In this document: piece by piece, positions 5,162 through 55,019 of the stretch
Layout: the number at the start of each line of letters is the position of its first letter
Position numbering within the stretch: the stretch's first letter is position 1
Assembly: GCF_014205165.1 (NCBI RefSeq)
Contig: NZ_JACHMZ010000001.1
Span: 1,586,001-1,650,000 of the forward strand
Length of the DNA: 64,000 bases
Source of the DNA: Micromonospora carbonacea
GTDB taxonomy: Bacteria; Actinomycetota; Actinomycetes; Mycobacteriales; Micromonosporaceae
Direction: 5' to 3'
Translations under genes and position numbers: made by a program
The notes under the pieces: generated by a model
Databases searched by the model: none
The model's input: only the letters and a program-made list of their open reading frames with translations
Told to the model about the DNA's origin: nothing

Positions 5162-5214
5162 GTTAAGAAGGGGCCCCTGCTATGCAGAATGCGTTAACAG
5201 GGGGCCCCTCCTTT
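5162..5214 (+). repeat. Two-hairpin intergenic repeat, copy R1 (divergent)
   Basis: About 53 bp: GTTAAGAAGGGGCCCCT arm, a short linker ending AATGC, then GTTAACAGGGGGCCCCTCC. It is the most divergent of four related copies in the window (others at 31203, 44934, 54968). It sits between mraY and ftsW and can form two GC-rich hairpins. A terminator or a REP/MITE-like element is likely; which of the two cannot be decided here. Confidence 0.65.
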
Positions 5215-5281
5215 CGCCCGGCGACACGCCGACCACGGCGTTCGGCCGGAACGGGCCGCCCGCATTGGCGATGATGGGCGG

Positions 5282-6814
5282 GTGGGGGAGGACCGAGGCA
5301 CCAGCGCGACAACGACCGACACGGCCGGGCGACGCGGCCCGGGGGGCGGCCGGGGGGCCGACCCGCCGGCCGCCGCGCCGGGGTTCGGCCTGGACGCCGC
5401 CGGCGGGCTGGCCGCGCTGCGGGGCCTGCTGGCCCGCCCGCTGGCCTCCTACTATCTGCTGATCTCCAGTGCCGGCCTGCTGCTGGTCATCGGCCTGACC
5501 ATGGTCTTCTCGGCCACCAGCGTGAAGAACTACGCCGAGGAGGGCAACGCCTTCGCCGACGCCACCCAACAGGCGATCTTCGCGGTGATCGGGGTGGTGG
5601 CGTTCTGGGTGTGCCAGCGGCTGCCGGCGAGCACCTACCGGTCGGTGGCCGGCACGGCGCTCGGCATCGCCGTGGTGCTGCTGCTGGTGCTCAACCTGCT
5701 GCTCGCGCTCGACTCGTTCTTCGGGGTGAAGCGGGTGGGGCCGCTGGAGGCCAACCTGCTGTGGCTGTTCGTCGGCGGCGTCCAACTCCAACCCTCCGAG
5801 CTGGCGAAGTTCGCGCTGGTGCTGTGGGGCGCCGACGTGCTGGCCCGCAAGGGCGCCCGGCTCGGCTGGTGGAAGGAGCTGGCCACCCCGCTGTTCCCCG
5901 TGGTCGCGCTGCTGTTCGTGCTGGTCGGCTACAACGACGTCGGCACGATGCTCTGCCTGCTGGCCCTCGTCGTCGGCCTGCTCTGGGCGGCCGGGGTGCG
6001 CGCCAAGGTCTTCGCCGTGCTGTCGGTGATCGGGCTGGTCGGCATCGGGCTGCTCGTCGCCGCCGCCTCGCTCGGCGCGGGCTCGGGGGCGAAGGGCGAG
6101 GAGAACTACCGGCTGGCCCGGCTCACCATCTTCTTCAATCCGCCCGAGCCCAGGGACTGCTTCGAGACGTGGTGCTACCAGCTCGTCCAGGGCCGCAACG
6201 CCATCGAGCACGGCGGCTGGTTCGGCGTCGGGCTGGGCAAGAGCAGCTTCAAGTTCGGCTGGCTGCCGGAGGCGCACAACGACTTCATCTTCGCCGTCCT
6301 CGCCGAGGAGCTGGGCGTGGTCGGCTGCGTGGTGCTGATCACCCTGTTCGCGGTGCTCGGCTACACCGGGCTGCGCATCGCCCGGCGGGTCGAGGACCCG
6401 TTCCGCCGGCTCGCCGCCGCCGGCGCGACCACCTGGCTGGTCGGCCAGGCGATCATCAACATCGGTGGGGTCATCGGCCTGACGCCGATGACCGGCGTGC
6501 CGCTGCCGTTCATCTCCGACGGCGGAAGCGCCCTGGTGGTGACCATGGCGGCGGTGGGGATGCTCGCCTCGTTCGCCCGCTGCGAACCCGACGCGGCCCG
6601 AGCCCTGCATGCCCGTCCGCCCGCCCGATGGGTCCGACTACTCTGGGCCCCGTTGCCGCCGCTTCCCGGCCGGCGCCGTCGCCCGGCGTCGCCACCGGCG
6701 GACCGTGGGTCCGTGCCCCGGTCGCGGGCGCGGCGCGAGGACGACCAGGCCGCATCCCGTGGCGCCCGGCCGGACCGGGCCCGGGGCGGGACGGCGAGCG
6801 AGAGGAGACGCTGA
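5282..6814 (+). CDS. ftsW: Septal SEDS peptidoglycan polymerase FtsW
   Basis: 510 aa. SEDS family glycosyltransferase that polymerises lipid II at the division site with its cognate class B PBP. About ten membrane segments; the catalytic-loop region reads WFGVGLGKSSFKFGW then LPEAHNDFIF, containing the conserved aspartate, and PLPFISDGGSALV closes the fold. GTG 5282 has a GATGAT hexamer 6 nt upstream, so translation may be leaderless. The last 70 or so residues form an Arg/Pro-rich tail beyond the conserved core. The stop overlaps the murG ATG by 1 nt. Confidence 0.9.
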   Translation: MGEDRGTSATTTDTAGRRGPGGGRGADPPAAAPGFGLDAAGGLAALRGLLARPLASYYLLISSAGLLLVIGLTMVFSATSVKNYAEEGNAFADATQQAIFAVIGVVAFWVCQRLPASTYRSVAGTALGIAVVLLLVLNLLLALDSFFGVKRVGPLEANLLWLFVGGVQLQPSELAKFALVLWGADVLARKGARLGWWKELATPLFPVVALLFVLVGYNDVGTMLCLLALVVGLLWAAGVRAKVFAVLSVIGLVGIGLLVAAASLGAGSGAKGEENYRLARLTIFFNPPEPRDCFETWCYQLVQGRNAIEHGGWFGVGLGKSSFKFGWLPEAHNDFIFAVLAEELGVVGCVVLITLFAVLGYTGLRIARRVEDPFRRLAAAGATTWLVGQAIINIGGVIGLTPMTGVPLPFISDGGSALVVTMAAVGMLASFARCEPDAARALHARPPARWVRLLWAPLPPLPGRRRRPASPPADRGSVPRSRARREDDQAASRGARPDRARGGTASERRR

Positions 6815-7920
6815 TGGGTCCGCTGCGTTCGGTGGTGCTCTGCGGAGGGGGCACGGGTGGCCACATCTACCCGCTGCTCGCCTTCGCCGACTGCCTGCGC
6901 CGACACGACCCGGGCGTCCGGATCACCTGCCTCGGCACACCGAAGGGCCTGGAGAACGAGCTGATCCCGCCGGCCGGCTACGACCTGCGGCAGATCCCGG
7001 CCTACCAGCTGCCCCGGTCGGTGAACATGAGCCTGGTCCGCACCCCCGACCGGATGTGGAAGGCGGCCCGCGCGGCGGGCAAGGTGATCGACGAGGTCCG
7101 GGCCGACGTGGTCGTCGGCTTCGGCGGGTACGTCTCCGTGCCCGGCTACCTGGCCGCCTGGCGGCGCGAGCTGCCGATCGTCATCCACGAGGTGAACGTG
7201 CCGCCGGGGGTGGCCAACCGGCTCGGCATGAAGTTCACGAGCAACGTCGCGGTGGGCTTCCCGCACCAGCCGGCGCAGGCCGAGGCGCTGCGCGACGCCC
7301 GGGTGGTCGGGGTGCCGCTGCGCCGGGGCATCGCCGGGCTGGACCGGGCGGCCAACGCCGCCGCCGCGCGCGCCCACTTCGGACTCCGGCCGGACCTGCC
7401 GGTCCTCTTCGTCGCCGGCGGCTCGCAGGGCGCCCGGTCGATCAACCTCGCCGTCGCGGGCGCGGCCAAGGAGCTGGCCCGGCACGGCGTGCAGGTGCTG
7501 CACGTGATGGGCGCCCGCAACGAGCCGGTGCCGGTCCCCAGCGACCTGCCGGTGCCGTACGTGACGCTGCCCTACCTGTCCCAGATGGAGATCGGCTACG
7601 CCGCCGCCGACCTGATGCTCGGCCGGGGCGGGGCGATGACCTGCGCGGAGGTCGCCGCGATCGGGCTGCCCACCGTCTACGTGCCGTACCCGCACAGCAA
7701 CCAGGAGCAGAAGCGCAACGCGCTGCCCGTGGTGGAGGCCGGCGGCGGGCTGCTCGTGGACGACGCCGAGCTGACCCCGGACTGGGTGGAGCGCACCATC
7801 ATCCCGCTGATCCGCGACCCGCACCGGCTCGCCGCGATGGGCGCCGCCGCGGCGGCGTACGGGCGGCGCGACGGCGACGAGGCGCTGCTGAACTTCGTCT
7901 ACGAGGCGGTGGCCCGATGA
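6814..7920 (+). CDS. murG: Lipid II synthase MurG (GlcNAc transferase)
   Basis: 368 aa GT28 glycosyltransferase that adds GlcNAc from UDP-GlcNAc to lipid I on the inner membrane face. The N-terminal glycine loop GGTGGH is at residues 12-17, a second G-rich stretch is GFGGYVS, and the UDP-GlcNAc-binding part includes GGSQGARSIN and GRGGAMTCAE. ATG 6814 is preceded by GAGAGGAG and overlaps the ftsW stop (TGATG). The frame is open far upstream, but only inside ftsW. Confidence 0.94.
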   Translation: MGPLRSVVLCGGGTGGHIYPLLAFADCLRRHDPGVRITCLGTPKGLENELIPPAGYDLRQIPAYQLPRSVNMSLVRTPDRMWKAARAAGKVIDEVRADVVVGFGGYVSVPGYLAAWRRELPIVIHEVNVPPGVANRLGMKFTSNVAVGFPHQPAQAEALRDARVVGVPLRRGIAGLDRAANAAAARAHFGLRPDLPVLFVAGGSQGARSINLAVAGAAKELARHGVQVLHVMGARNEPVPVPSDLPVPYVTLPYLSQMEIGYAAADLMLGRGGAMTCAEVAAIGLPTVYVPYPHSNQEQKRNALPVVEAGGGLLVDDAELTPDWVERTIIPLIRDPHRLAAMGAAAAAYGRRDGDEALLNFVYEAVAR

Positions 7921-7954
7921 GGGGCGCGGCCGTCGCGACCGGAAGGTGCCCGTC

Positions 7955-9409
7955 ATGAACACCGCGCAGTTCACCCCGGCCGGGACGCTGACCGCCGAGG
8001 ACCTGGGCCGGATCCACCTGATCGGGGTCGGCGGCGTCGGCATGAGCGGGCTGGCCCGGCTCTTCCTCACCCGGGGCCTGCCGGTCTCCGGCAGCGAGCT
8101 GCGCGAGTGGCCGTCGCTGGCCGGGATGCGGGCGCTGGGCGGGACCGTCCACATGACCCACGAGCCGTCCAACCTCGACGGCGTCGACACGGTCGTCTAC
8201 TCCTCGGCGATCCCGCAGGACCACGTGGAGATGGTGGAGGCGCGGCGGCGCGGGCTGCGGGTGCTGCACCGCTCCGAGGCCCTCGCGGCGGCGATGACGG
8301 GCCGCCGCACGGTGGCGATCGCCGGCACCCATGGCAAGACCACCACCACCTCGATGGTGACGATGGTGCTCCAGCAGGCCGGCGCCGATCCGTCCTTCGT
8401 GATCGGTGGGGAGATCTCCGAGGTCGGCTCCGGGGCGCACCACGGCACCGGCGAGCACTTCGTGGTCGAGGCGGACGAGAGCGACCGCTCGTTCCTCATC
8501 TACCGCCCGTACGTATCGGTGATCACCAACATCGAGGCCGACCACCTCAACACGTACGGGGACCTGGCCACGCTGGAGGCGGCGTTCGCCGAGTTCGCCC
8601 GGCTCACCGACCCCGACGGGTTCATCGTCACCTGCGCCGACGACCCGGGCGGGCGGCGGCTGGCGCAGACGCTGCGGGCCGAGGGCCGCCGGGTGCACAC
8701 GTACGGCGAGGCGGCCGACGCCGACCTGCGGCTGAGCGAGGTCGTCTCCTCCGCGCAGGGGGTGCGCTACCTCGCCGAGATCGACGCGCGGTCGCTGGGC
8801 GAGTTCCGGCTGCCGGTGCCGGGTCGGCACATGGGGCTCAACAGCGCGTCGGCGGTGCTCACCGCGTACCTGCTGGGGTTGCCCGTCGAGGCGGCGGAGG
8901 CCGCGCTCGCGGCGTTTCCCGGGGTGCGGCGGCGCTTCGAGCGCAAGGGCGTCGCCGACGGCGTGCTGGTCTACGACGAGTACGCCTACCACCCGACCTC
9001 GATGACGCTGGCCATGCGGACGCTGCGCGAGGTGGCCGGCGAGGGGCGGCTGCTCGTGGTGTTCCAGCCCTACCGGCTCTACCGCACCCGCGACCTCCAG
9101 GCGGAGATCGCCGCCGCCCTCGGCCTCGCCGACGAGCTGGTGCTGCTGGAGGTCTTCGGCCCCGGCGAGCTGCGCCAGCCGGGGGAGGGCTCGGCGGCGC
9201 TGGTGGAGGCGGTGCCCCTGCCGGCCGACCGGAAGGTCTTCGTCGGCTCCTGGGAGGACGCGCCGGTCGAGGTGGCCCGCCGGGCCCGCCCGGGCGACGT
9301 GGTGGTGACGATGGGCGCCCCGCCGATCTCGCTGCTGGGCGACGAGCTGCTGGCGGCCCTGTCGGCCCGCGCCGGTGACGCGGGCGGCTCGGCGGCCACC
9401 GCCGGATGA
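7955..9409 (+). CDS. murC: UDP-MurNAc L-alanine ligase MurC
   Basis: 484 aa. First amino-acid ligase of the Mur pathway, joining L-Ala to UDP-MurNAc. Rossmann-like N-domain with GVGGVGMSGLA (about 24-34), ATP loop AGTHGKTTTT (about 123-132), and the C-domain motif DEYAYHPTS where most homologues have DDYxHHPT. ATG 7955 is preferred over GTG 7946 because GGAAGG at 7941-7946 is correctly spaced from it and would overlap the GTG. The stop overlaps ftsQ (ATGA). Confidence 0.93.
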   Translation: MNTAQFTPAGTLTAEDLGRIHLIGVGGVGMSGLARLFLTRGLPVSGSELREWPSLAGMRALGGTVHMTHEPSNLDGVDTVVYSSAIPQDHVEMVEARRRGLRVLHRSEALAAAMTGRRTVAIAGTHGKTTTTSMVTMVLQQAGADPSFVIGGEISEVGSGAHHGTGEHFVVEADESDRSFLIYRPYVSVITNIEADHLNTYGDLATLEAAFAEFARLTDPDGFIVTCADDPGGRRLAQTLRAEGRRVHTYGEAADADLRLSEVVSSAQGVRYLAEIDARSLGEFRLPVPGRHMGLNSASAVLTAYLLGLPVEAAEAALAAFPGVRRRFERKGVADGVLVYDEYAYHPTSMTLAMRTLREVAGEGRLLVVFQPYRLYRTRDLQAEIAAALGLADELVLLEVFGPGELRQPGEGSAALVEAVPLPADRKVFVGSWEDAPVEVARRARPGDVVVTMGAPPISLLGDELLAALSARAGDAGGSAATAG

Positions 9410-10224
9410 GCCCCGGTCCGGCGCGGGGCCGCACGGCCGGCGCGGACCCGGGCGGGGGCCGGCGGGGGCCGGTGCGGCGCTGGCAGCTGGTGCGGGCCGG
9501 CTCGGACGCGGTGCCGCCCTCGACCCGGCGGTTCATGGCCCGGGCCCGGCAGCGCCGGATGCGCGCGGCGCTGCCCTGGGCGGTGGCCGCGGGGGTGCTG
9601 GCCCTGGCCGCGCTGGTGGCCTGGACGGTGCTCGGCACCGGGCTGTTCGGCGTGCGCGAGGTGCGGGTGGAGGGCGCCGAGCTGGTCACCGCCGTGGAGG
9701 TCCGCGAGGCCGCCGCCGTGCCGGACGACCAGCCGCTGGCGCGGGTCGACCTGGCCGCCGTCGCCCGGCGGATCGGCGCGCTCGCCCCGGTGGAGCGGGC
9801 GACGGTCACCCGGGACTGGCCGGGGGCGCTGGTGGTGCGGGTGGTGGAGCGCACGCCGGTGGCGGCGGTGCCGCAGGGCGAGCGGTTCGCCGTGGTCGAC
9901 GGGTCCGGGGTGGTCTTCCGGTCGCTGCCCCGGCAGCCGGAGGGCCTGCCGGTGGTGCGGGTCGGCCAGCCGGGGCCGGCGGATCCGGGCACCCTGGCCG
10001 GGCTGGAGGTGCTGGGCGCGCTGACCCCGGAGCTGCGCGGGCAGCTGGTGGAGGTCGGCGTCGAGGGGCTGGCCCGGATCAGCCTGCGGCTGCGCGGCGA
10101 CCGGACCGTCGTCTGGGGCGACGCCACCCGGGGGGCGGACAAGGCCCGGGTCGCCACGGCCCTGCTCGGTCGGAAGGCCGACACGATCGACGTGAGCGCG
10201 CCGGACGTGGTCACCTTCCGGTGA
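9406..10224 (+). CDS. ftsQ: Cell-division protein FtsQ
   Basis: 272 aa bitopic divisome protein. Basic cytoplasmic N-terminus (1-55), one membrane segment at about 57-76, then an extracellular POTRA domain beginning GVREVRVEGAELV and the FtsQ beta domain. In the divisome it links early and late proteins and regulates FtsW/FtsI. ATG 9406 overlaps the murC stop. It is the last gene before the long ftsZ leader, so ftsZ probably has its own promoter. Confidence 0.9.
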   Translation: MSPGPARGRTAGADPGGGRRGPVRRWQLVRAGSDAVPPSTRRFMARARQRRMRAALPWAVAAGVLALAALVAWTVLGTGLFGVREVRVEGAELVTAVEVREAAAVPDDQPLARVDLAAVARRIGALAPVERATVTRDWPGALVVRVVERTPVAAVPQGERFAVVDGSGVVFRSLPRQPEGLPVVRVGQPGPADPGTLAGLEVLGALTPELRGQLVEVGVEGLARISLRLRGDRTVVWGDATRGADKARVATALLGRKADTIDVSAPDVVTFR

Positions 10225-10387
10225 CCGGCCGGTCAGCGGCCCACCCGGGGCGGGTCGCCCCGGGGCATGGGCCGGCCGGCGGCGCGGGCCGGAAGGTGAG
10301 GCGTGGCCCTCTCCGGCGGCGACACGCCGGGCGGGTCCTTGGCTCCGGGCGTGGGGCCGCTTACGTTGCCCCGAAGAGGATCAGTAG

Positions 10388-10429
10388 TTGACATAACAGT
10401 AAGCCTCTAGTAGAGGGTGAGGGTTCACC
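10388..10429 (+). promoter_or_regulatory. ftsZ promoter with overlapping palindromes
   Basis: TTGACA at 10388-10393, 17-bp spacer, TAGAGG at 10411-10416. The -10 lies inside a perfect palindrome CCTCTA-G-TAGAGG (10404-10416), followed by GGTGA-GGGT-TCACC (10416-10429). The leader to the ftsZ ATG is then about 100 nt. The rest of 10225-10387 shows no gene. A promoter at this place is expected from other actinobacteria; the operator role of the palindromes is inferred. Confidence 0.6.
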
Positions 10430-10523
10430 TCTCGGCCTCGTTGGGGGCCCGGCCGTGTCGGCGCTGGTCTGGCCAAGCCGTGTGGGGTCGGCCCATGCCA
10501 ATCTCGAAGGGAAAGGACCGGAG

Positions 10524-11636: not shown

Positions 11637-11645
11637 CCGCCCGAG

Positions 11646-12407: not shown

Positions 12408-12476
12408 CCTGACCCGCGAGAGAAGCAAATTACATCAGTGTTGTTTCAGGAGCGGCGTCCCGTCGTCAGGGGGCGC

Positions 12477-12501: not shown

Positions 12502-12597
12502 GGGGATTGCTGTTCCGGTCCGGTGGGCAGGTTGTCCACTCGCGAGAAGCGACACGGCACGGGGGCGCGTGCCGCACGGCGGACGGAAGGGCGCGGG

Positions 12598-20277: not shown

Positions 20278-22017
20278 ATGGCGCTGGGAGGGCGAGCCTT
20301 GGACGGCACGGAGACCAGCTGGGGTCGGCCGGCCGAACCAGCACCGCGGTGGCGGGCGCTGCTCGACCGGGCCCGGCTCGGTGGTCGCACCGCGGAGCAG
20401 GCCGAGGCAGACCGCCACGCCGAGGAGGCGGCCCGCGCGGCGCCGGAGCCGCTGCCCCGGCGCGGGTCCGGCAACGGCTATGCCGGGCGGGCGGCGATCG
20501 GCCCGCCGGGGGAGCAGCCGTACGCCGCGGAGCCCGGCTATCCGGCCGAGCCGGCGCGCGGCGGCTACCGGGCCGGGGCGAGCTACCGGGTGGACCCGGC
20601 CTACCGGATCGACCCGTCCTACCAGCCGGAGCAGGCGGGCTACCCGGCCGATCCGCTGGGCTACCAGCCGGAGCCCCCTGGCTACCAGCCGGAGGCCCCG
20701 TCCTACCAGCCGGAGCAGGCGGGCTACCCGGCCGATCCGCTGGGCTACCAGCCCGAGCCCCCCGGCTACCAGCCCGAGCCGACCTATCCGGCCGAGCCGT
20801 CGTGGCGGTCCGGCCCCGGGCGACCCGACCCGGAGCCGCCGCGCCGCGCCGACCCGCCGCCGCCCGCCCAGTCGCGCTACTCGCTGCTCGACGGCGGCGG
20901 CTACCGCCCCGAGCCCGCGCCGGTCGAGTCCCGCTACTCGCTGCTCGACGGCGGCGGCTACCGCCCCGAGCCCGCCTACCCGCCGCCCCTGGCCGAGCCG
21001 GTCTACCAGCCGCCCATGGTGGAGCCCGCCTACCCGCCGCCCCCGGCGGAGCCGGTCTACCATCCGCCGCCGGCCGAGCCGGTCTACCGGGCCGAGGCCG
21101 CCTACCAGCCCGTCGCCGATCCGGTCTACCAGCCGCCGCCCGGGCCGCCCGCCGTGGTCGAGCGGGGCTACCCGGCCCGCATCGAGTGGCGGGCGCAGAG
21201 CGCCGAGAGCGAGCTGGAACGCGCCGCCGGGGTGCTCCGCCGTGACCTGGGCACGCCCCGGGTGCTCGCCTTCGCCAACCCCAAGGGCGGGGTGCACAAG
21301 ACCACCGCCACGGTGCTGGCCGCCGCCACCGTCGGCAGCGTACGCGGCCGGGGCGTGCTCGCCTGGGACGACAACGAGCTGCGCGGCACCCTCGGGCTGC
21401 GGGCCGGCAGCGCCCGGCACGCCCGGACGATCCGGCACCTGATCCACGACCTCGCCCAGATCGAGATCCTGGAGGGCTCCACCCTGCTGGGCAGCCTCGA
21501 CGACTACCTGCGGCACGCCGCCGACGGCTCGTACGACGTGCTGGCCGGGGAGGAGAGCCCCCGGTTCGCCCAGCGGCTCGACCAGTTCACCGTCAAGCGG
21601 GTGCTGGAGCTGCTGCGGCGCACGCACGACGTGGTCTGCGTGGACACCGGCAACAACGTGGAGAGCCCCAACTGGCGCACGGTGATGCAGGCCGCCGACC
21701 AGCTCGTGGTGACCACCGTGCCCCGGGAGGACGCCGCGTTCAGCGCCGACTGGATGCTCGACCTGCTGCACGAGGTCGGCATGGGCGAGCTGGCCGACAA
21801 CGCCGTCACCCTGATCTCCTGCCCGACGCCGGGCCGCTCGCCGTTGCAGACCGACCTGGAGCGGCACTTCGCCACCCGCACCCGGGCGGTGGCCGTGGTG
21901 CCGTACGACCCGGCGCTGGAGACCGGCTCGTCGATCGAATACCACCAGCTCCAGCCGGAGACCCGGCAGGCGTGGCTGCGCGCGGCGTCGGTCATGCTGG
22001 AGCCCTTCGCCCGCTGA
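20278..22017 (+). CDS. ParA/MinD-like ATPase with a Tyr/Pro-repeat N-terminus
   Basis: 579 aa in two parts. Residues 1-310 are a disordered region rich in Tyr, Pro and Glu, with a 28-residue tandem duplication (GYQPEPPGYQPE units) and a 19-residue one (SRYSLLDGGGYRPEP). Residues 320-579 are a ParA/MinD ATPase fold: P-loop NPKGGVHKTT (334-343), VDTGNNVESPNW as the Walker B-like region, and VPYDPALETG near the end. The deviant Walker A has His340 where KGGxGKT has Gly. Partition or localisation proteins belong to this fold, but no ParB or parS-like site is nearby, so the cargo is unknown. ATG 20278 is used; TTG 20299 with GGGAGG upstream is an alternative. Confidence 0.8.
   Translation: MALGGRALDGTETSWGRPAEPAPRWRALLDRARLGGRTAEQAEADRHAEEAARAAPEPLPRRGSGNGYAGRAAIGPPGEQPYAAEPGYPAEPARGGYRAGASYRVDPAYRIDPSYQPEQAGYPADPLGYQPEPPGYQPEAPSYQPEQAGYPADPLGYQPEPPGYQPEPTYPAEPSWRSGPGRPDPEPPRRADPPPPAQSRYSLLDGGGYRPEPAPVESRYSLLDGGGYRPEPAYPPPLAEPVYQPPMVEPAYPPPPAEPVYHPPPAEPVYRAEAAYQPVADPVYQPPPGPPAVVERGYPARIEWRAQSAESELERAAGVLRRDLGTPRVLAFANPKGGVHKTTATVLAAATVGSVRGRGVLAWDDNELRGTLGLRAGSARHARTIRHLIHDLAQIEILEGSTLLGSLDDYLRHAADGSYDVLAGEESPRFAQRLDQFTVKRVLELLRRTHDVVCVDTGNNVESPNWRTVMQAADQLVVTTVPREDAAFSADWMLDLLHEVGMGELADNAVTLISCPTPGRSPLQTDLERHFATRTRAVAVVPYDPALETGSSIEYHQLQPETRQAWLRAASVMLEPFAR
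20617..20784 (+). repeat. 84-bp in-frame tandem duplication
   Basis: Two near-identical 84-bp units (20617-20700 and 20701-20784) encode 28 residues each inside the N-terminus of the ParA-like protein. A second 57-bp duplication follows at 20872-20928/20929-20985, encoding SRYSLLDGGGYRPEP. Both keep the frame, so length variation between strains is likely. Confidence 0.8.
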
Positions 22018-30206: not shown

Positions 30207-31205
30207 GTGACCGTCAACCGTGAGATCCACCTCGCCTCCCGCCCCGAGGGGTGGCCGACCGCCGACAACTTCCGGCTCGTCGAGACCGAGGTGCCCACCC
30301 CGGGTCCCGGGCAGCTCGTGGTCCGCAACCAGTTCATGTCCGTCGACCCGTACATGCGGGGCCGGATGAACGACGTCAAGTCGTACGTGCCGCCGTTCGC
30401 CCTCGACGCCCCGCTCGACGGCGGCGCGGTCGGCGAGGTGGTGGCCGGCGAGGGCAACGGGATCGGCCCCGGCGACACCGTCCTGCACGGCCTCGGCTGG
30501 CGGGAGTACGCCCTGGTCGACGCCCGGGGAGCCCGCAGGGTCGACCCGACGATCGCCCCGGTGAGCGCCTACCTGGGCGTGCTCGGCATGACCGGGCTGA
30601 CCGCGTACGCCGGCCTGCTCGACGTGGCCGCCATGCAGCCCGGGGAGAGCGTCTTCGTCTCCGGCGCGGCCGGGGCGGTGGGCAGCATGGTCGGCCAGAT
30701 CGCCAAGCTGAAGGGCGCCGCCCTGGTGGTCGGCAGCGCCGGCTCGCCGGCCAAGGTCGAGCGGCTGCGGGCGCTCGGCTTCGACGCCGCGTTCGACTAC
30801 CACGACGGCCCCGTCGCCGACCAGCTCAGGGCCGCCGCCCCGAAGGGGATCGACGTGTACTTCGACAACGTCGGCGGCGAGCACCTGGAGGCCGCGATCG
30901 GCGCGCTGCGCCTGCACGGGCGGGCCGCGATCTGCGGCATGATCGCCCAGTACAACGCCACCGAGCCGCCGGCCGCCCCGCGCAACCTGGCGCAGCTCAT
31001 CGGCAAGCGGCTCACCCTGCGCGGCTTCCTCGTCGGCGACCACGGCCACCTGCGCGACCAGTTCGTCCAGGAGGTCGCCGGCTGGCTGCGCGAGGGCAGG
31101 CTCTCGTACGACGAGACGGTCGTCGACGGCATCGCCGCCGCCCCGGACGCCTTCCTCGGCCTGCTGCGCGGCGAGAACCTCGGCAAGATGCTGGTGCGCC
31201 TGTAA
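30207..31205 (+). CDS. NADP-dependent oxidoreductase (zinc-free MDR, alkenal reductase type)
   Basis: 332 aa medium-chain reductase without zinc ligands. N-terminal GroES-like part with VDPYMRGRM, nucleotide-binding [12 protein letters not shown] at about 152-163 and [13 protein letters not shown], all typical of the prostaglandin/2-alkenal/curcumin reductase subfamily that saturates conjugated carbonyls with NADPH. Such activity would suit the adjoining ohr module, since peroxidised lipids yield alkenals; this link is inferred. GTG 30207. Its TAA stop is the first three bases of repeat R2. Confidence 0.85.
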
Positions 31206-31254
31206 GGAAGGGCCCCTTGTTAACGCTTCCGGTAGAGAAGGGTCCCCTTCTCAC
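31203..31254 (-). repeat. Two-hairpin intergenic repeat, copy R2
   Basis: 52 bp, inverted relative to the other copies. Reading the minus strand: GTGAGAAGGGGACCCTTCTC (hairpin 1), a linker TACCGGAAGC, then GTTAACAAGGGGCCCTT and CCTTA. Its last bases form the stop codon of the upstream oxidoreductase. A terminator role is likely. Confidence 0.75.
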
Positions 31255-31268
31255 CCCGCCCCGGAGCC

Positions 31269-31398: not shown

Positions 31399-31412
31399 TA
31401 GGCTTCCCGGCA
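31399..31412 (+). promoter_or_regulatory. Leaderless-type promoter of hisF
   Basis: TAGGCT at 31399-31404, 7 nt, ATG at 31412. It gives hisF its own transcript, separate from the hisDCBHA operon from which it is parted by the ohr module. Confidence 0.55.
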
Positions 31413-32179
31413 TGACGGTGGCGGTGCGGGTGATCCCGTGTCTCGACGTGGACGCCGGGCGGGTGGTCAAGGGGGTCAACTTCCTCGACCTGCGCGACGC
31501 CGGCGACCCGGTGGAGCTGGCGGCGGCGTACGACCGGGCGGGCGCGGACGAGCTGACCTTCCTGGACGTGACCGCCTCCTCCAGCGACCGGGGCACCATG
31601 CTCGACGTGGTGCGGCGCACCGCCGAGTCGGTCTTCATCCCGCTCACCGTGGGCGGCGGCGTGCGGCAGGTCGCCGACGTCGACACGCTGCTGCGGGCCG
31701 GGGCCGACAAGGTCGGGGTGAACACCGCGGCCATCGCCCGGCCCGAGCTGATCGCCGAGATCGCCGACCGATTCGGCCGGCAGGTGCTGGTGCTCTCCCT
31801 CGACGTGCGCCGCGCCCCGGCCGGCACCACCACGAGCGGCTTCGAGGTCACCACCCACGGCGGCCGCCGGGGCACCGGGCTCGACGCCGTCGAGTGGGCG
31901 CGGCGCGGCGCCGAGCTGGGCGCGGGGGAGATCCTGCTCAACTCGATGGACGCCGACGGCACGAAGGCCGGCTTCGACCTGGAGCTGATCGGCGCGGTCC
32001 GCGCCGTCGTCGACGTGCCGGTGGTGGCCAGCGGCGGGGCGGGCGAGGTGGCCCACTTCCCGCCGGCCATCGCCGCCGGGGCCGACGCGGTGCTCGCCGC
32101 CAGCGTCTTCCACTTCGGCGAGCTCACCGTCGCCGAGGTCAAGGACGCCCTGCGCGGCTCGGGCCACCCCGTGCGCTGA
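31412..32179 (+). CDS. hisF: Imidazole glycerol phosphate synthase cyclase subunit HisF
   Basis: 255 aa (beta-alpha)8 barrel, the exact usual length. With HisH it closes the imidazole ring and releases AICAR. Catalytic D12 in [14 protein letters not shown]; the second aspartate is in LSLDVRRAP; phosphate-binding loops TVGGGVRQ and [14 protein letters not shown] 31412 follows its -10 box. Separated from hisH by about 3.8 kb and from hisI by about 16 kb. Confidence 0.95.
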
Positions 32180-44873: not shown

Positions 44874-44933
44874 GCGCCGCGCCGCTCGCTGGGGCGCGGG
44901 CTGTGCCGGTGGGCGCGGGCCGTGCTCCGGGAG

Positions 44934-44985
44934 GTGAGCGGGGTACCCCGCTCTACCGAATGCGTTAACAAGGGGCCCTTCCTTA
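44934..44985 (+). repeat. Two-hairpin intergenic repeat, copy R3
   Basis: 52 bp: GTGAGCGGGGTACCCCGCTC, linker TACCGAATGC, then GTTAACAAGGGGCCCTTCC and TTA. Hairpin 1 differs from R2/R4 in sequence but still pairs perfectly (GAGCGGGG/CCCCGCTC), i.e. compensatory change. It lies between the convergent DUF2470 and TetR genes, so it could terminate both. Confidence 0.75.
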
Positions 44986-45582
44986 CCCCAGCCCCCCGCG
45001 CAGGTAGCGCTGGACGGTGGGGCCCACCGCCGCGACCAGGGTCTCCGCCGGGGCGGAGGCGACCGGCTCCAGCCGCACGACGTGCCGCATGAGGGCCAGC
45101 CCGACCAGCTGGCTGGCCACCAGCGACCCGCGCAGCGGCAGCTCGGCCGGGTCGACGTCGAGGTGCTGGAGGATCCGGCGCAGCACCTGGGTGACCAGGA
45201 ACTCCCGCAGCAGCCGGGCCGTCCACTCGTTGCTCACGGCCGAGCGCAGCAGGGCCACCGCGGCGACGCCGGCCGGGGAGTCCCAGACGCCGAGGAAGGT
45301 GCGCACCAGCCGCTCGCCGACGCCGTCGGGGTCGCCGGCCAGCACCCGGGGCAGCAGCTCGCCCGGGTCGAGCGGGGCGCCCATCGCGGCCAGGAAGAGC
45401 TGGTCCTTGCCGCCGAAGTAGTGGTGCACCAGCGCCGGGTCGACCCCGGCCGCGGCGGCGATCGACCGGATCGAGGACGCGTCGAAGCCCCGCTCGGCGA
45501 ACGCGGCGCGCGCCGCGTCGAGGATCGCCTCGCGGGTGCCCGGGTTGCCGGGCCGCCGGCCGGTGCGTCGCGGCGTCGCCAT
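44983..45582 (-). CDS. TetR family transcriptional regulator
   Basis: 199 aa. TetR helix-turn-helix at about 15-55 (TREAILDAARAAFAERGFDA, with GVDPALVHHYFGGKDQLF as the recognition helix part), then a TetR-C-type ligand domain. Similar to TetR_C_17 regulators that control ABC-2 exporters. ATG 45582 is preferred over GTG 45591. It is the last gene of the minus-strand ABC operon and probably represses it via the palindrome at 47147. Confidence 0.86.
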   Translation of the reverse strand: MATPRRTGRRPGNPGTREAILDAARAAFAERGFDASSIRSIAAAAGVDPALVHHYFGGKDQLFLAAMGAPLDPGELLPRVLAGDPDGVGERLVRTFLGVWDSPAGVAAVALLRSAVSNEWTARLLREFLVTQVLRRILQHLDVDPAELPLRGSLVASQLVGLALMRHVVRLEPVASAPAETLVAAVGPTVQRYLRGGLG

Positions 45583-48807: not shown

Positions 48808-50357
48808 CCGACGGCGTCGTCAGCCCCGACCAGGCCACCTTCGCCGACCTGGCGGCCCGCTGGCGGGTCGTCCCGGTCACCCGGCGGCTGCTCGCCGACG
48901 CGGAGACCCCGGTGGGCGTCTACCGCAAGCTGGCCGGCGGCCCGGGCACGTTCCTGCTGGAGTCCGCCGAGCAGGGGGCCGGCTCGGCGGGGATGGCCTG
49001 GTCGCGGTACTCGTTCATCGGGGTGCGCAGCAGCGCCACCCTCACCGAGCGCGACGGCGCGGCGTGCTGGACCGGCCAGCCGCCGGCCGGGCTGCCCGCC
49101 GGCGGCGACCCGGTGCGGGTGCTGCGCGAGACCGTCGAGGCCCTCGCCGGCCCGGCCTGGGACCCGGACAGCGGCATGCCGCCGCTGACCGGCGGCATGG
49201 TCGGCTACCTGGGATACGACCTGGTCCGCCGCTTCGAGCGGCTGCCGGAGCTGACCGAGGACGACCTCGGCCTGCCCGAGCTGGGCATGATGCTCGCCAC
49301 CGACCTGGTGGTCCTCGACCACTACGACGGCTCGGCGATCCTGATCGCCAACGCGGTGCTGCCCCCGGCCGACGAGCCGGGCCGGGACGCCCTGGTCGCC
49401 GCGGCCTACCACCACGCGGTGGGGCGGCTGGACGCGATGACCACGGCGCTGTCCCGGCCCATCCCGCCGATGATCTCCACGGTCGACCGGCCGGCCGTCG
49501 CCGATGTGGTCAGCCGCACCGACCCGGGCGGCTACCCGAAGGCCGTCGAGGCGGCCAAGGAGGCGATCCGGGCCGGGGAGTGCTTCCAGATCGTGCTGGC
49601 CCAGCGCTTCGAGCGGCCCACCGACGCCGACCCGCTGGACGTCTACCGGGTGCTGCGCACCACCAACCCGAGCCCGTACATGTACCTGCTGCGCTTCGAC
49701 GGCTTCGACGTCGTCGGCTCGTCGCCGGAGGCGCACCTGAAGGTCAACGCCGGCCCCGACGGTCGACGCCGCGCGCTGCTGCACCCGATCGCCGGCACCC
49801 GCCCGCGCGGCGGCACGCCGGACGCCGACGCCCGGCTCGCCGCCGAGCTGCTCGCCGACCCGAAGGAGCGCTCCGAGCACGTCATGCTTGTCGACCTGGG
49901 TCGCAACGACCTGGGCCGGGTCTGCCGGCCGGGCACGGTGGAGGTGCCGGAGTTCGCCACCATCGAGCGCTACAGCCACGTCATGCACATCGTCTCGACC
50001 GTGGTCGGCGAGCTGCGTCCGGAGCAGACGGCGTTCGACGCGCTGGCCGCGACCTTCCCCGCCGGAACCCTGTCCGGCGCGCCGAAGGTCCGGGCCATGG
50101 AGATCATCGAGGAGCTGGAGCCGGTCCGGCGCGGCCTCTACGGCGGCACGGTCGGCTACTTCGGCTTCGGCGGGGACCTGGACATGGCGATCGCCATCCG
50201 CACCGCGCTGATCCGCGACGGCCGCGCGTACGTGCAGGCCGGCGCGGGGGTGGTGGCCGACTCCGACCCGGCCGCCGAGGACCGGGAGACCCGCGACAAG
50301 GCCGCCGCCGTGCTCGCCGCCATCGCCGCCGCCGAGACGCTGCGGCCCGCCCGGTGA
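48804..50357 (+). CDS. trpE: Anthranilate synthase component I TrpE
   Basis: 517 aa. Chorismate to anthranilate with TrpG glutaminase (not in the window). The feedback-binding motif LLESAEQG is at about residues 49-56; the catalytic chorismate-binding part includes [39 protein letters not shown] and [20 protein letters not shown] 48804 overlaps the hisI stop, so expression is coupled to histidine synthesis. trpG and trpD are not next to it. Confidence 0.95.
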
Positions 50358-50394
50358 GCGCGGCGGGGCGGCCCGTCGCGGCACCGGGCGGCGG

Positions 50395-51015
50395 GTGGCC
50401 GCGGTGACCGGGCCGGCGACCGGCGGGGAGACCTCCGGGGCCGGCGCGCCGGCCGCGCGGGCGCGCCGCGAGCTGACGTACGCCGTGCTGCTCTGCCTGG
50501 CCGGCGCGGGCCTGGCGCTGTGGGCCTCGACCCGGACCTGGGCGGTGGAGTTGGCCGCCCGGCCGGCGCCGCTGCCCCCGGTGCGGGCGGCCCGCACCGG
50601 GGCGGGCCTGCTGCCCTGGCTGCCCGCGCTCGCGGTGGTCGGGCTGGCCGGGGGCGGGGCAGTGCTGGCCACCCGGGGGGTGCCGCGCCGGCTGGTCGGC
50701 GTCCTGCTGCTGGCGCTCGGCGCGGCCGTGGCTGCCGGCGGCGGCTACGGCCTGGTGGCCGCGTTCGACGGCACGGTGAGCCGGCAGTGGCCGGCGTTCT
50801 GCCTGGTCGGTGGCCTGCTCGCCGCCCTCGGCGGCGGCCTCGTCGCGCTGCGCGGCGGGGGCTGGCCGGCGATGGGGGCGCGCTACGAGCGCCCGGCCCG
50901 GCCCGGCGTCGGCCCCGCCGCGGCGGAGGCCGCCGTGGCGGGCCCGGTGGCCGGGCGGCGGACCACCGAGGCGTGGGACGCGCTGGACCGGGGCGAGGAC
51001 CCGACGGCCGATTGA
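50395..51015 (+). CDS. Trp-associated membrane protein (TIGR02234 type)
   Basis: 206 aa with four hydrophobic segments (about 28-45, 76-95, 99-121, 134-155) and the LALWASTRTWAVE motif (a Trp-containing loop) typical of the actinobacterial trp-region membrane family. The role is unknown; a part in tryptophan uptake or sensing is only an idea. GTG 50395 is used, GTG 50404 is equally possible. Its stop codon lies in a 15-bp triplicated repeat. Confidence 0.75.
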   Translation: MAAVTGPATGGETSGAGAPAARARRELTYAVLLCLAGAGLALWASTRTWAVELAARPAPLPPVRAARTGAGLLPWLPALAVVGLAGGGAVLATRGVPRRLVGVLLLALGAAVAAGGGYGLVAAFDGTVSRQWPAFCLVGGLLAALGGGLVALRGGGWPAMGARYERPARPGVGPAAAEAAVAGPVAGRRTTEAWDALDRGEDPTAD

Positions 51016-51054
51016 CCGACGGCCGACTGACCGGCGGGCGATTGACCGGGGGAC
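51010..51054. repeat. 15-bp triplicated repeat over the stop codon
   Basis: Three imperfect copies of GATTGACCGRCGGSC (51010-51024, 51025-51039, 51040-51054) overlap the TGA stop of the Trp-associated membrane protein. Each copy carries another in-register TGA. Confidence 0.55.
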
Positions 51055-51059
51055 GCGTG

Positions 51060-51076
51060 CCCGGCCGGCGGCCGGG
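51060..51076. terminator. Hairpin between convergent genes
   Basis: CCCGGCC-GGC-GGCCGGG, 7-bp perfect stem with a 3-nt loop, between the end of the Trp-associated gene and the end of the minus-strand 85-aa gene. No T-run. A bidirectional terminator is likely. Confidence 0.5.
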
Positions 51077-51102
51077 CCGCCTGGCGGCGCGGGCGGCCGG
51101 GG

Positions 51103-51360
51103 TCAGCCGACCGGCTGGCGGTCCGGCGTCGCGGCGCGGGCGGCGGCCAGCTCGGCCACCAGCCGGTTCAGCTCGGCGCGCTGGTCGGCGCGGGCCCGGT
51201 CGGCGCAGACGGCCTCCCAGGCGTTGCCGCGCGCGGTGCGCACCCGGGCGTCGCCCACGACGGCCCGCTCCAGGGTGTGCACCACCCCGACGGCCAGCGA
51301 CGCCACGGTGCGGGAGATGGTGGTCAGTCCGATGGTCGGGTTGGGCCCGGCAGTGCTCAT
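51103..51360 (-). CDS. Small conserved-looking protein, function unknown
   Basis: 85 aa from ATG 51360 (GGGGTGA upstream). Residues 10-35 (TIGLTTISRTVASLAVGVVHT) are mildly hydrophobic, the rest is an Ala/Arg-rich amphipathic helix ending LNRLVAELAAARA. No recognised domain. It runs against the trp genes. The start of 51375 (GTG) would add five residues. Coding-like third-position bias supports it, but confidence is limited. Confidence 0.5.
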   Translation of the reverse strand: MSTAGPNPTIGLTTISRTVASLAVGVVHTLERAVVGDARVRTARGNAWEAVCADRARADQRAELNRLVAELAAARAATPDRQPVG

Positions 51361-51375
51361 CTGGTCACCCCACAC

Positions 51376-51842
51376 GAGATCGTTCCGACGGCGCGGGCGG
51401 CGGCTCGCCGCGACCGCCCGATGGGCCGTGGGCAGGCCCCTTGTCGAGTCTGCCCGAGTCCCACGGTGCCCGGCTCACGTTTCGCCGTGGTCACCGCCAC
51501 GTCAACTGTCCGCCGGGTCCGGCCACCTGGGCAGGGCCGTTCAGCCTTGAGCTTCGTCACAACATCGACCGGCGTGCGCGCGGTCGCGCCGCCGGTGGGC
51601 GCGGGGGCCGCCGGCCGGTCGCGCCGGTGCCGACGGGCGGCGTGCGCCCGGCGCGCCGCGGACGGACAATGATCCGATGAAGATGGGCGATCATCGATGG
51701 ATTGGCGGGCGGCGGCGTCACCGCGATCGATGCGGGAGATCGCGCTCGGTGATCTACCGTTCACCGGAAGTCGGCCATTATGCCGCAGCCCATCTCGTGA
51801 GGCGCGCCATACCCCCGGCACGTGCTGCCAGGTGGCGCCCCC
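51376..51842. other. Long intergenic region before trpC
   Basis: About 470 bp with no supportable gene. It is less GC-rich near 51670-51790 (ATGATCCGATGAAGATGGGCG). An open frame from ATG 51677 has only one Trp codon, so a Trp attenuator peptide is not visible. Only the trpC -10 box at the end is a clear signal. Confidence 0.5.
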
Positions 51843-51855
51843 TAGCATCGGCCCA
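51843..51855 (+). promoter_or_regulatory. Leaderless-type promoter of trpC
   Basis: TAGCAT at 51843-51848, 6 nt, ATG at 51855. This makes trpCBA a separate transcript from hisI-trpE. Confidence 0.55.
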
Positions 51856-52745
51856 TGACACCCGGAGAGGGGAGTCCGTTGGTGACTGCTGAGCATGCGC
51901 ACGCGGAGGGGGACGGGGCCGGTCCGGCGGCGTCCGGAAGCGTCCTCGACGAGATCCTGGCCGGCGTCCGCGAGGACGTCGCCCGACGGCAGGAGCAGGT
52001 TCCGCTGGAGCGGATCCGTGAGCTCGCCGCCGCCGCGCCGCCACCGCTGGACGCGTACGCGGCCCTGCGCCGACCCGGCGTGGCGGTGATCGCCGAGGTG
52101 AAGCGCTCGTCGCCGTCCAAGGGCCAGATCGCCGAGATCGCCGACCCGGCCGTCCTCGCCGCCGACTACGCCGCCGGGGGCGCGCGGGTCATCAGCGTGC
52201 TCACCGAGGGGCGCTGGTTCGGCGGCTCGCTGGACGACCTGGCCGCCGTCCGGGCCGCGGTCAGGGTGCCCGTGCTGCGCAAGGACTTCGTCGTCTCCAG
52301 CTACCAGGTGCACGAGGCCCGTGCGCACGGCGCGGACCTGGTCCTGCTGATCGTGGCCGCGCTGGAGCAGAACGCGCTGGTCGGGCTGCTGGAGCGGATC
52401 GAGTCCCTCGGCATGTGCGCGCTGGTCGAGGTGCACACCGAGGAGGAGGCCGACCGGGCCATGGAGGCCGGCGCGCAGGTGATCGGGGTCAACGCCCGCG
52501 ACCTGCGTACCCTGGAGGTCGACCGGTCGGTGTTCGAGCGGATCGCCCCCGGCCTGCCCAGCAACGTCGTCAAGATCGCCGAGTCCGGCGTGCGCGGCCC
52601 GCACGACCTGATCCGGTACGCCTCGGCCGGTGCCGACGCCGTGCTGGTCGGCGAGGGCCTGGTCACCCAGTCCAGCCCCCGCGAGGCGGTGGCCGCCCTG
52701 GTCAACGCCGGCAACCACCCGGCGACGCCCCGCCCGGCGCGCTGA
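51855..52745 (+). CDS. trpC: Indole-3-glycerol phosphate synthase TrpC
   Basis: 296 aa; the first 30 residues are an acidic/Ala-rich extension before the usual start [17 protein letters not shown]. (beta-alpha)8 barrel converting CdRP to indole-3-glycerol phosphate. Active-site parts: [52 protein letters not shown] and [12 protein letters not shown] 51855 follows the TAGCAT box; a GTG at 51882 would shorten it. No trpF or trpD is linked. Confidence 0.94.
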
Positions 52746-52815
52746 GCCGCGCCGGGCTCCCGCCCGGCGCGCCGAGCAACCCGGGGCGAGAAGTCAGCAG
52801 CGAGAGGACACCGCC

Positions 52816-54051
<1,236 letters not shown>

Positions 54052-54054
54052 CTC

Positions 54055-54858
54055 GTGAGCCGCATCGGGGTCGCGTTCGACAAGGCCCGGGCCGACGGGC
54101 GGGCCGTGCTGGTGGGCTGCATGCCGGCCGGCTTCCCGACCGTCGAGGGCAGCATCGCGGCCATGAAGGCGATGGTCTCCGCCGGCGTGGACGTCATCGA
54201 GCTGGAGATCCCCTACTCCGACCCCGTGATGGACGGCCCGGTCATCCAGAAGGCCAGCGACATCGCCCTGGCCGGCGGCGTGCGCACCGCCGACGCGCTG
54301 CGCATCGTCGAGGCGGTCGCGGCCACCGGCGCGCCGGTGGTCACCATGACCTACTGGAACCCCATCGAGCAGTACGGCGTCGACGCGTTCGCCCGGGACC
54401 TCGCGGCGGCCGGCGGCACGGGCCTGATCACCCCCGACCTGATCCCCGACGAGGCCGACGAGTGGCTGGCCGCCTCGGACGCGCACGGCCTGGACCGCAC
54501 CTTCCTGGTCTCCCCGTCGTCGACGGACGCGCGGCTGCGGATGACCGCGGAGCACTGCCGGGGCTTCGTCTACGCCACCGCCATCATGGGCGTCACCGGC
54601 GCCCGGTCGCAGACCTCGGAGGCCGCGCCGATCCTGGTCTCCCGGCTGCGCGAGGTGACCGACCTGCCGGTCGGCGTCGGGCTCGGCGTCGGCACGGGCG
54701 CGCAGGCCGGCACCGTCGCCGGGTACGCCGACGGCGTGATCGTCGGCAGCGCCCTGATCCGCTGCCTGCTCGACGCGCCCGACCCGGCCGCCGGCCTGAC
54801 CGCCCTGCGGGCGCTGAGCGCCGAGCTGGCCGAGGGCGTCCGCCACCCGCAGCGCTGA
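54055..54858 (+). CDS. trpA: Tryptophan synthase alpha subunit TrpA
   Basis: 267 aa barrel that cleaves indole-3-glycerol phosphate to indole for TrpB. Catalytic residues E49 and D60 in VIELEIPYSDPVMDGP; phosphate loop GLGVGTGAQAG. GTG 54055 is 3 nt after the trpB stop. The C-terminus ends with RHPQR. Followed by a low-complexity CG tract and repeat R4. Confidence 0.95.
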   Translation: MSRIGVAFDKARADGRAVLVGCMPAGFPTVEGSIAAMKAMVSAGVDVIELEIPYSDPVMDGPVIQKASDIALAGGVRTADALRIVEAVAATGAPVVTMTYWNPIEQYGVDAFARDLAAAGGTGLITPDLIPDEADEWLAASDAHGLDRTFLVSPSSTDARLRMTAEHCRGFVYATAIMGVTGARSQTSEAAPILVSRLREVTDLPVGVGLGVGTGAQAGTVAGYADGVIVGSALIRCLLDAPDPAAGLTALRALSAELAEGVRHPQR

Positions 54859-54967
54859 CCCGCCCCGCGCCGCCCCGCCCAGCGCCGCCCCGCCCCCTCC
54901 GCCGCCCAGCCCCGCCCCGCCCCCTCCGCCCCGCCCCGCCCGGCACCGCTCGCGCGCGCCGTGCGGG
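54859..54967. repeat. CCCCGCC-rich low-complexity tract
   Basis: About 100 bp of degenerate CCGCCCC/CCCCTCCGCC units between trpA and repeat R4. No coding or regulatory feature is visible in it. Confidence 0.6.
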
Positions 54968-55019
54968 GTGAGAAGGGGACCCTTCTCGACCCCAGGCGTT
55001 AACAAGGGGCCCTTCCTTG
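54968..55019 (+). repeat. Two-hairpin intergenic repeat, copy R4
   Basis: 52 bp: GTGAGAAGGGGACCCTTCTC, linker GACCCCAGGC, then GTTAACAAGGGGCCCTTCC and TTG. Nearly identical to R2 reversed. It stands between trpA and lgt, whose promoter begins 38 bp later. Confidence 0.75.

Follow-up and report, generated by a model that had tools for sequence, protein, structure and literature searches.

The repeat described here is closest to the REP-like sequences, which in the literature cited below, as far as its relevant passages go, are mainly proteobacterial and usually accompanied by RAYT transposases. REPINs and BIMEs, as characterized in Bertels and Rainey 2011 (PMC3116915) and in PMC8049555, combine two inverted palindromes and a spacer, form a hairpin in single-stranded DNA or RNA, are intergenic and present in high copy number, and decay to single halves. 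The present repeat shares these features, being built of two palindromic units in inverted orientation around a spacer, but it is not accompanied by a RAYT, is limited to one actinobacterial family among the genomes searched, and has a fixed polarity toward stop codons. The GTAG and CGTC REPs of Di Nocera et al. 2013 (PMC3733652) are, like our repeat, found for the most part 3' of genes, in gaps whose flanking genes converge or point the same way; further resemblances are that the ends of GTAG REPs often provide a stop codon and that CGTC REPs have no dedicated transposase either. Unlike in GTAG REPs, the GTAG motif is found only in the L half, at its inner base, in 20 of 53 of our own copies, and unlike in CGTC REPs, CGTC is missing from the consensus of 52 copies. 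Micromonospora, Salinispora, and Actinobacteria do not occur in the main text of that paper. MITEs are likewise short, non-coding, intergenic, and of high copy number, and have inverted termini, as the present repeat does; no target duplication was seen in the diverged flanks compared, and no partner transposon was found in the stretches read between neighbouring copies. The G-rich heptamer repeats of Xanthomonas (PMC4692102) show a similar preference for stop codons, lying on the sense strand no more than 50 bp from them, but they are tandem G-quadruplex repeats, whereas ours are palindromes.

The window analysed is a 64,000-nucleotide stretch of the Micromonospora carbonacea genome (G000; other G numbers denote genomes of relatives, and L numbers denote loci). 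The 7.53-Mb genome contained 293 matches to the repeat motif at up to three mismatches (146 forward and 147 reverse), while a reversed-pattern control gave none in the same genome and none in the scan of relatives, which excludes chance for the repeat family. The further copies that the preliminary description had called for are thus present, and an assembly artefact is ruled out too, since the same copies occur in other genomes. The 293 are motif matches rather than copies, since a copy whose inverted repeat is nearly perfect may be counted once for each arm; 53 copies were present in ca. 1.78 Mb sampled by position, which extrapolates to ca. 225 in the genome, with all copies located through the R core, so that those with a decayed R half escape detection. 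An apparent regional orientation bias among the listed matches was an artefact, as the exactly matching copy R2 is absent from that listing.

Copies are ca. 60 bp long. A linker separates the R half (GCGTTAACARGGGGCCCYTCCTT), which is invariant, from the L half, which is palindromic and variable. The ends are inverted (GGTG...); the outer ends of the element read GGTG(C/T)AAGG and GGTGTTAGG or GGTGAGAAGG, and thus constitute terminal inverted repeats. Among 231 copies, themselves picked by the R core, GTTAA was conserved at 98–99% per base and the next C at 91%. Conservation of the R half concerns its sequence, not its pairing.

All four copies reported earlier in the window were found at their places and share one plan, although the 52 bp first assigned to them fall within whole elements of 60–64 bp. 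R1 (5155..5218, forward strand; L half 5163–5184, linker, R core 5191–5213) begins 59 bp past the stop codon of mraY (3971–5098), inside a mur/fts gene cluster, and is flanked on the other side by an FtsW-like gene (5282–6814) that scores below the curated cut-off. Its left half has another form (GTTAAGAAGGGGCCCCTGCTATGCAG), and its R end points toward a gene start, which is the minority polarity. R2 (31199..31262, reversed; R core 31204–31226, L half 31233–31254) contains a TAA (31203–31205) with which the gene at 30207–31205 ends, and hisF (31412–32179) comes next; G275, G322, G320, and G245 have the copy at this stop as well, and the sites in G288 and G150 were classed by eye as diverged copies. 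R3 (44926..44989, forward; L half 44934–44955, R core 44962–44984) lies in a convergent gap, and its R end contributes the TAA with which the gene 44983–45582, on the reverse strand, terminates. Its L-half arms are GAGCGGGG/CCCCGCTC, compared to GAGAAGGG/CCCTTCTC in two other copies, so the paired arm change noted previously is real. R4 (54960..55023, forward; L half 54968–54989, R core 54996–55018), also present in G275, G335, and G276, is located between trpA (54055–54858) and lgt (55072–56193), 104 bp past the trpA stop and 51 bp ahead of lgt, and has the polarity opposite to that of most copies. The statement that all copies directly follow gene ends therefore holds for R2 and R3, which touch a stop codon made by the element itself, but not for R1 and R4.

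The element is polarised, with its R end against stop codons; this is a new observation. With gene ends taken from a home-made codon-usage finder, 31 of the 48 sampled copies that could be used had the R end at −5 to +15 nt relative to a stop codon, and four had the L end there, while 3.3% would be expected within this distance under a random intergenic placement model (five of the 53 copies were dropped, three being inside predicted genes and two having no neighbour). In convergent gaps of the same sample, the end nearer the stop was R in 21 cases and L in two. Among the named relatives, where 23 of 156 copies were dropped (eight inside predicted genes, 15 without a neighbour), 84 R ends and 22 L ends of the remaining 133 copies were stop-adjacent, and in convergent gaps R was nearer in 53 cases and L in seven. 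The stop codon is often furnished by the element as TAA, which accounts for nine of the 31 stops beside R ends, as against 41 of all 1350 sampled stops. Convergent gaps contained 23 of the 48 copies (18.3% under random placement) and divergent gaps four (27.5%), and a gene 3' end was present on at least one side in 44, a downstream location of the REP type that supports the gene-end placement proposed at the outset.

The family was carried by 81 of 300 genomes of its own taxonomic family, in a patchy manner; none of 171 genomes from the other families of the order contained it. Of 106 genomes of the genus, 32 had at least 40 matches, 25 had 1–39, and 49 had none; in other genera, the cores were lineage-shifted. 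Copies are mostly inherited and sometimes lost. Carriers cluster on the R2-locus tree, eight of nine copies are common to G000 and G275 across 164 kb, and orthologous copies are common to genomes whose flanks are 80–98% identical, with the sharing and the R-core substitution rate (33/1058) among named relatives biased by the choice of all their loci through an exact R core. Between G000 and G275, substitutions were found at 17 of 465 element positions, compared to 52 of 418 positions of noncoding DNA within 60 bp (Fisher p 1e-6) and 2037 of 30,744 four-fold sites (p 0.008); the difference from intergenic DNA at large was mild (3.7% vs. 5.9%, p 0.04). A candidate new insertion in G000 at 1531567 was rejected, since G335 has the same copy with both neighbours 96% alike. 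A copy is also present beside the same downstream gene in G352, so that loss in G275 is most likely; loss leaves a short remnant. Thus, the idea of a mobile or spread element stands as far as spread and structure are concerned, but no new insertion was seen, and the one case in which close relatives clearly differ is a loss.

We tentatively favour the view that the repeat is a REPIN/BIME-like palindrome, formerly mobile, that is retained today as a 3'-UTR hairpin next to stop codons, with post-transcriptional work. Two head-to-head palindromes, an invariant R and a variable L, would once have spread among the genomes of Micromonosporaceae, as suggested by the dispersed near-identical copies and the patchy orthologous sites; today, they would mainly be inherited, with loss by deletion or decay, and be retained chiefly at sites where a stop codon adjoins the R end. 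In the transcript, the stop codon would be followed by the R arm, the linker, and the L arm, so that a strong hairpin would begin where the ribosome stops, and its likeliest work would be protection of the mRNA 3' end and/or limited read-through at the gene end. A putative protein may read the invariant GTTAAC-AAGGGG. Counted against the 3'-UTR hairpin are equal folding on both strands, the lack of a U-tract at the window copies, the mild constraint relative to intergenic DNA, the reversed R1 and R4, the 17 of 48 copies (about a third) whose R end is not stop-adjacent, and the failure to find either a mobilising enzyme or a new insertion.

The high copy number, inverted ends, patchy copy numbers within the genus, lineage-shifted cores elsewhere, and the short remnant after loss would also fit a purely selfish MITE- or REPIN-like miniature element that has no host function, inserts with a stop-codon target preference through a putative transposase, and owes its position to insertion chemistry and purging from genes and promoters. 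We consider this unlikely, if still worth weighing, as orthologous copies are shared and have accumulated fewer changes than the DNA next to them, and neither a target duplication nor a transposase alongside was seen. Filled and empty flanks were too diverged for a duplication to be seen, the only close pair being a loss. PF01797 (RAYT, Y1 transposase) was present in 44 of 151 genus genomes; five of the 32 high-copy genomes were among these, ten were searched and empty, and the remaining 17 were not among the matches listed. In G000, the match belongs to an IS605-type pair (Y1_Tnp, OrfB_IS605), and the 2.5 kb read there contained no R core, so a RAYT/IS200 driver is unsupported. No autonomous transposon was found in the stretches read between neighbouring copies.

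Folding was examined with respect to both structure and termination. The two hairpins initially proposed are real as palindromes, but predicted folding prefers a single long hairpin, the whole element folding better than its halves apart in 216 of 231 copies. Mean predicted hairpin energy was −26.3 kcal/mol, compared to −16.9 for single-letter shuffles (20 per copy) of the 53-copy set. The two strands gave −26.5 and −26.0, and stronger gene-sense folding was not borne out (28 of 53 copies). Covariation is genuine, but few changes stand behind it, and across all copies it is weak: the consensus fold, a single R–L hairpin, had a covariation term of −0.34, almost nil. In 24 distinct own sequences of one subtype's left half, pair 10–21 was A-T in 21 and C-G in three, and pair 11–20 was A-T in 19, G-C in three, and unpaired in two. 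The same double arm change occurred at one orthologous locus (G000 L194 vs. L184 of M. haikouensis and L178 of Micromonospora sp. ATCC 39149). Among 22 usable of 46 ortholog pairs, with one locus counted twice, four stem cells were compensatory (all at this locus), ten had one-side changes, and 21 were broken. Kept pairing is thus seen in the left half of one subtype and at one ortholog locus. The covariance-model search scored up to 35 candidates per genome.

The strong predicted hairpin and the location at gene ends and in convergent gaps are what a family of uni- or bidirectional transcription terminators spread by copying and lacking a U-tract would display. Such terminators, as originally suggested for this element, are a rather improbable explanation: no terminator-like site was found in any of the four copy regions of the window, where the G+C-rich hairpin is not followed by the T run of Rho-independent terminators, R1 would cut the mur/fts cluster, the G320 R2 site has a further hairpin-like stretch after the element (read by eye), and the R half is kept by sequence rather than by pairing. 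Rfam gave no match in the window at the gathering score, and one sub-threshold match, away from the copy, at five loci with copies.

In the sister genomes G264 and G301, the R core was missing at every orthologous site read (six and three, respectively), and other palindromic repeats were present instead. This would be explained if the R half were the recognition site of a dedicated putative protein acting at or just after translation termination in a stop-linked control of ca. 150 genes (extrapolated), with loss of the protein followed by decay of the whole repeat set, a scheme that we regard as doubtful. Recognition of the repeat by a protein that binds DNA or organises the chromosome, with RNA irrelevant, would accord with the conserved R-half sequence and the even strand balance but does not predict stop-codon polarity, and is very unlikely.

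A large actinobacterial family that has measurable polarity and no evident RAYT makes the old choice between parasite and working 3'-end element directly testable, since some related species have the family and others lack it, and copies next to stops can be deleted one at a time. No description of this repeat was found in the open-licence literature, so annotators of Micromonospora genomes would gain a label for it.

The genes on either side of the gap at L080 are on the same strand. This gap contains two copies, separated by 42 bp, and a stop codon adjoins the R end of one of them only, so the two do not face both stops of a convergent pair. At L076, a 1.2-kb insert corresponds to a DDE_3 transposase gene lodged in the GTTAAC of a copy.

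Re-reading of the window sequence recovered all four copies that had been described as sharing a common plan (R1, 5155..5218, forward; R2, 31199..31262, reverse; R3, 44926..44989, forward; R4, 54960..55023, forward), and the double change in R3, which alters both arms, was confirmed in the sequence. The occurrence of further copies, set beforehand as a test, was studied by searching the M. carbonacea genome (G000, a single contig of 7.53 Mb in which the window occupies positions 1586001-1650000) with the conserved half of the element, GCGTTAACARGGGGCCCYTCCTT, allowing up to 3 mismatches. The search returned 146 forward and 147 reverse matches, and a reversed-pattern control with the same tolerance returned none. 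A scan of named genomes yielded at least 120 loci; among the matches listed, all belonged to Micromonospora, Asanoa, or 'Micromonosporaceae bacterium KJ-029', and the flanks of some M. haikouensis loci were 95-98% identical to G000.

The anatomy of the element was derived from 231 distinct copies together with 52 aligned copies out of the 53 sampled in G000. In gene-sense order, GGTG(C/T)AAGGAAGGGCCCCTTGTTAACGC is followed, after a short linker, by the L half, a palindrome of variable sequence ending in ...CACC or ...AACACC. Conservation of the R core, the GTTAAC-containing core of the invariant half, was 90-100% at most bases (the clearest exception is one A/G position, 73/26%), which is partly a selection effect, the R core having served to find the copies. 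Several forms of the L half occur, each centring the palindrome differently; among 81 G000 copies, 34 were in register 30, 24 in register 31, 22 in register 32, and one in register 33. The whole element is a near inverted repeat, and a single long hairpin is predicted as the optimal fold, with a mean of -26.3 kcal/mol vs -13.3 for halves folded apart. By predicted energies, whole-element folding beat separate halves in 216 of the 231 copies, leaving the two-hairpin plan of the preliminary description as a possible alternative fold rather than the predicted optimum. The mean for G000 copies was -26.5, compared with -16.9 for single-letter shuffles, and predicted folding was equal on both strands.

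The proposal that compensatory changes keep the pairing was borne out in one subtype. In 24 distinct G000 sequences of register 31, pair 10-21 was A-T in 21 and C-G in 3, while pair 11-20 was A-T in 19, G-C in 3, and unpaired in 2. One orthologous locus has GAGCGGGG/CCCCGCTC in G000 but the A-T form in two relatives, M. haikouensis (96/95% identity in the flanks) and Micromonospora sp. ATCC 39149 (92/90%), implying that both pairs changed together there. Counting against the proposal, the 22 usable of 46 ortholog pairs gave 4 compensatory stem cells, all from this one locus, against 10 one-sided and 21 broken (141 were unchanged), and the covariation term of a consensus fold of all copies was almost nil. 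Judged from these comparisons, covariation offers thin evidence for a fold selected family-wide.

The orientation of copies relative to genes was studied in a G000 sample selected on position, made up of the window, a further 120 kb in its vicinity, and 80 spaced stretches of 20 kb each. Of its 53 copies, 48 were usable, lying outside predicted genes and flanked by one on each side. A stop codon lay within -5..15 nt of the R end, the outer end of the invariant half, in 31 of 48 copies; for the opposite L end the number was 4 of 48. If copies were placed and oriented at random within these gaps, 3.3% of R ends would be expected in that range. Where the flanking genes converge, the R end was closer to its stop in 21 cases and the L end in 2. 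Among loci of named relatives, chosen by exact R core, stop-adjacent ends numbered 84 of 133 (R) and 22 of 133 (L), with convergent gaps split 53 to 7; in the stretch from the related genome G275 they numbered 5 of 7 and 0 of 7. R end-stop distances peaked at -2, where the stop is the element's own TAA, at 0, and at 4-6, where TGA directly precedes GGTG. TAA made up 9 of the 31 stops beside R ends vs 41 of 1350 among the sample's stops. Convergent gaps held 23 of 48 copies (18.3% under random placement) and divergent gaps 4 of 48 (27.5%). No stop codon adjoined 17 of the 48 R ends, and window copies R1 and R4 have opposite polarity.

Across G000 1526001-1690000, eight of nine copies were common to G275 (96% identical), in the same orientation, and no G275-specific copy was found in this comparison. 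The ninth is absent from G275, which has TGA-AGGAGGG at its place; since it is present in G335 (96% identical on both sides), loss in G275 is the likelier event. The sites of 16 copies from named relatives could be aligned within the G000 stretches selected on position; read by eye, G000 has a copy at or near the site in 9 cases and none in 7. Between G000 and G275, elements carried 17 substitutions in 465 positions, compared with 52/418 in noncoding DNA up to 60 bp away (Fisher p = 1e-6), 2037/30744 at four-fold sites (p = 0.008), and 1029/17458 in other intergenic DNA (p = 0.04). The element is thus distinct from neighbouring DNA, whereas its difference from intergenic DNA overall is mild.

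At the R2 site, the element begins at the stop codon in 4 of 30 loci (G000, G322, G320, and G245), G288 and G150 have apparent diverged copies (by eye), and 24 loci have no element. A tree of these loci that also included G275 placed {G000, G275} and {G320, G322, G245}, all of them carriers, in one clade, which also holds the non-carriers G264 and G301. Copies were found in 2 of 30 loci at the R3 site (G000, G245) and in 4 of 30 at the R4 site (G000, G275, G335, G276). G264 had no pattern matches genome-wide, and at the sites read in G264 (six) and G301 (three) no R core with up to 6 mismatches was left.

In the taxonomic family, pattern matches occurred in 81 of 300 genomes, spread over 7 of 44 genera. 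The covariance-model search proposed in the preliminary description extended this range, with positives in 50 of 150 genomes, spread over 14 of 44 genera; G018 and G038 had 33 and 31 such matches (at most 35 candidates scored per genome) and none by pattern. A shifted core, e.g. GCGTTAAGAAGGTGCCCTTCCTT, is used in another genus. Order-wide, 13 of 200 genomes were positive, all in the window's genus, and 171 genomes from other families of the order had no match. Within the genus, a hand count of the pattern table gave at least 40 matches in 32 of 106 genomes, 1-39 in 25, and none in 49.

PMC3116915 and PMC8049555 describe REPINs as hairpin-forming inverted REP doublets duplicated by RAYT transposases. 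Passages of PMC3733652 place REPs mostly downstream of genes, state that the stop codon is often provided by GTAG REP ends, and report CGTC REPs without a dedicated transposase. The Micromonospora element works like a REPIN but differs from REPINs and REPs in the RAYT and general GTAG tests, and is therefore not classed as a REPIN member. PF01797, the domain of RAYTs and IS200-type transposases, was present in 44 of 151 genus genomes. Just 5 of the 32 high-copy genomes (hand count) were positive, and none of ten listed as searched had it, the other 17 not being among those listed. The sole match in G000 was an IS605-type pair (Y1_Tnp, OrfB_IS605), and the R core was not found in the 2.5 kb read there. 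In the stretches read, genes between neighbouring copies were ordinary, save for a passenger in Micromonospora sp. ATCC 39149 (L076 4150-5475), where a transposase gene with a DDE_3 domain, carried on an insert of 1.2 kb, interrupts the GTTAAC of a copy. Past mobility is something we infer from the dispersed near-identical copies. Contact between REPs and stop codons is already published; as far as searches of open-licence literature show, the repeat family itself, its actinobacterial host range, fixed polarity, and lineage-wide presence/absence are new.

We tentatively read the element as a REPIN/BIME-like palindrome, once mobile, that is now a stop-adjacent 3'-UTR hairpin. In the transcript, the stop codon would be followed by the R arm, linker, and L arm, and the element may be a structured 3'-UTR feature sited where the ribosome ends. 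Polarity, avoidance of divergent gaps, and slower change than in adjoining DNA favour such an mRNA 3'-end role over pure parasitism. A terminator search of four regions found no U-tract at the window copies, both strands fold equally, and R1 sits within a mur/fts cluster, so that termination is at most a putative activity. A purely selfish element is rather unlikely, a terminator family is quite improbable, and a DNA-protein site is the least probable of these readings.

Other palindromic repeats were observed. A second intergenic one (~60 bp, TGATCAAGAGGTTT..GTCA arms) was seen in a G003 sample (L348-L367) and in the R2 gaps of G003 (L251), G183 (L265), G285 (L269), and G241 (L260), mostly away from stops in the few copies read. 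Its arm matches per strand were 126/113 in G003, 101/103 in G285, 109/106 in G183, and 94/92 in G241, all with no pattern matches to the window's family, and 5/8 in G000. A third, with TTCACGGAAAGAGTGGC arms, had 16/16 matches in G264, 36/35 in G301, and none in G000, G275, and G335; this unrelated palindrome occupies places of G000 copies in the G301 R2 gap (L245) and the G264 1579173 site (L399). Intergenic DNA of G003 (L364, L367) also contains a fourth type of inverted repeat, GTCGATCATGGAGTTGTGG..CCACAACTCCATGATCGAC or similar, which recurs in G285, G183, and G003 at the 1531567 gap (L377-L379). At the R1 site, G264 (L398) has GAAAGGAGATCC..GGATCTCCTTTC, with similar ends and a core changed yet still palindromic. 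In L080 (541-698), a single gap between two genes on the same strand contains two copies of the window's family, separated by 42 bp and with their R ends pointing away from each other; only one of these R ends meets a stop. The gene murD is usual between mraY and an ftsW-type gene. In the window (3971-6814), the gene directly after mraY is FtsW-like, though it scores below the curated cut-off; R1 lies in the gap between the two, and no murD was seen there. The predicted gene at 20299-22017 contains proline/tyrosine-rich tandem coding repeats (20613-21153) with 21- and 27-nt periods.
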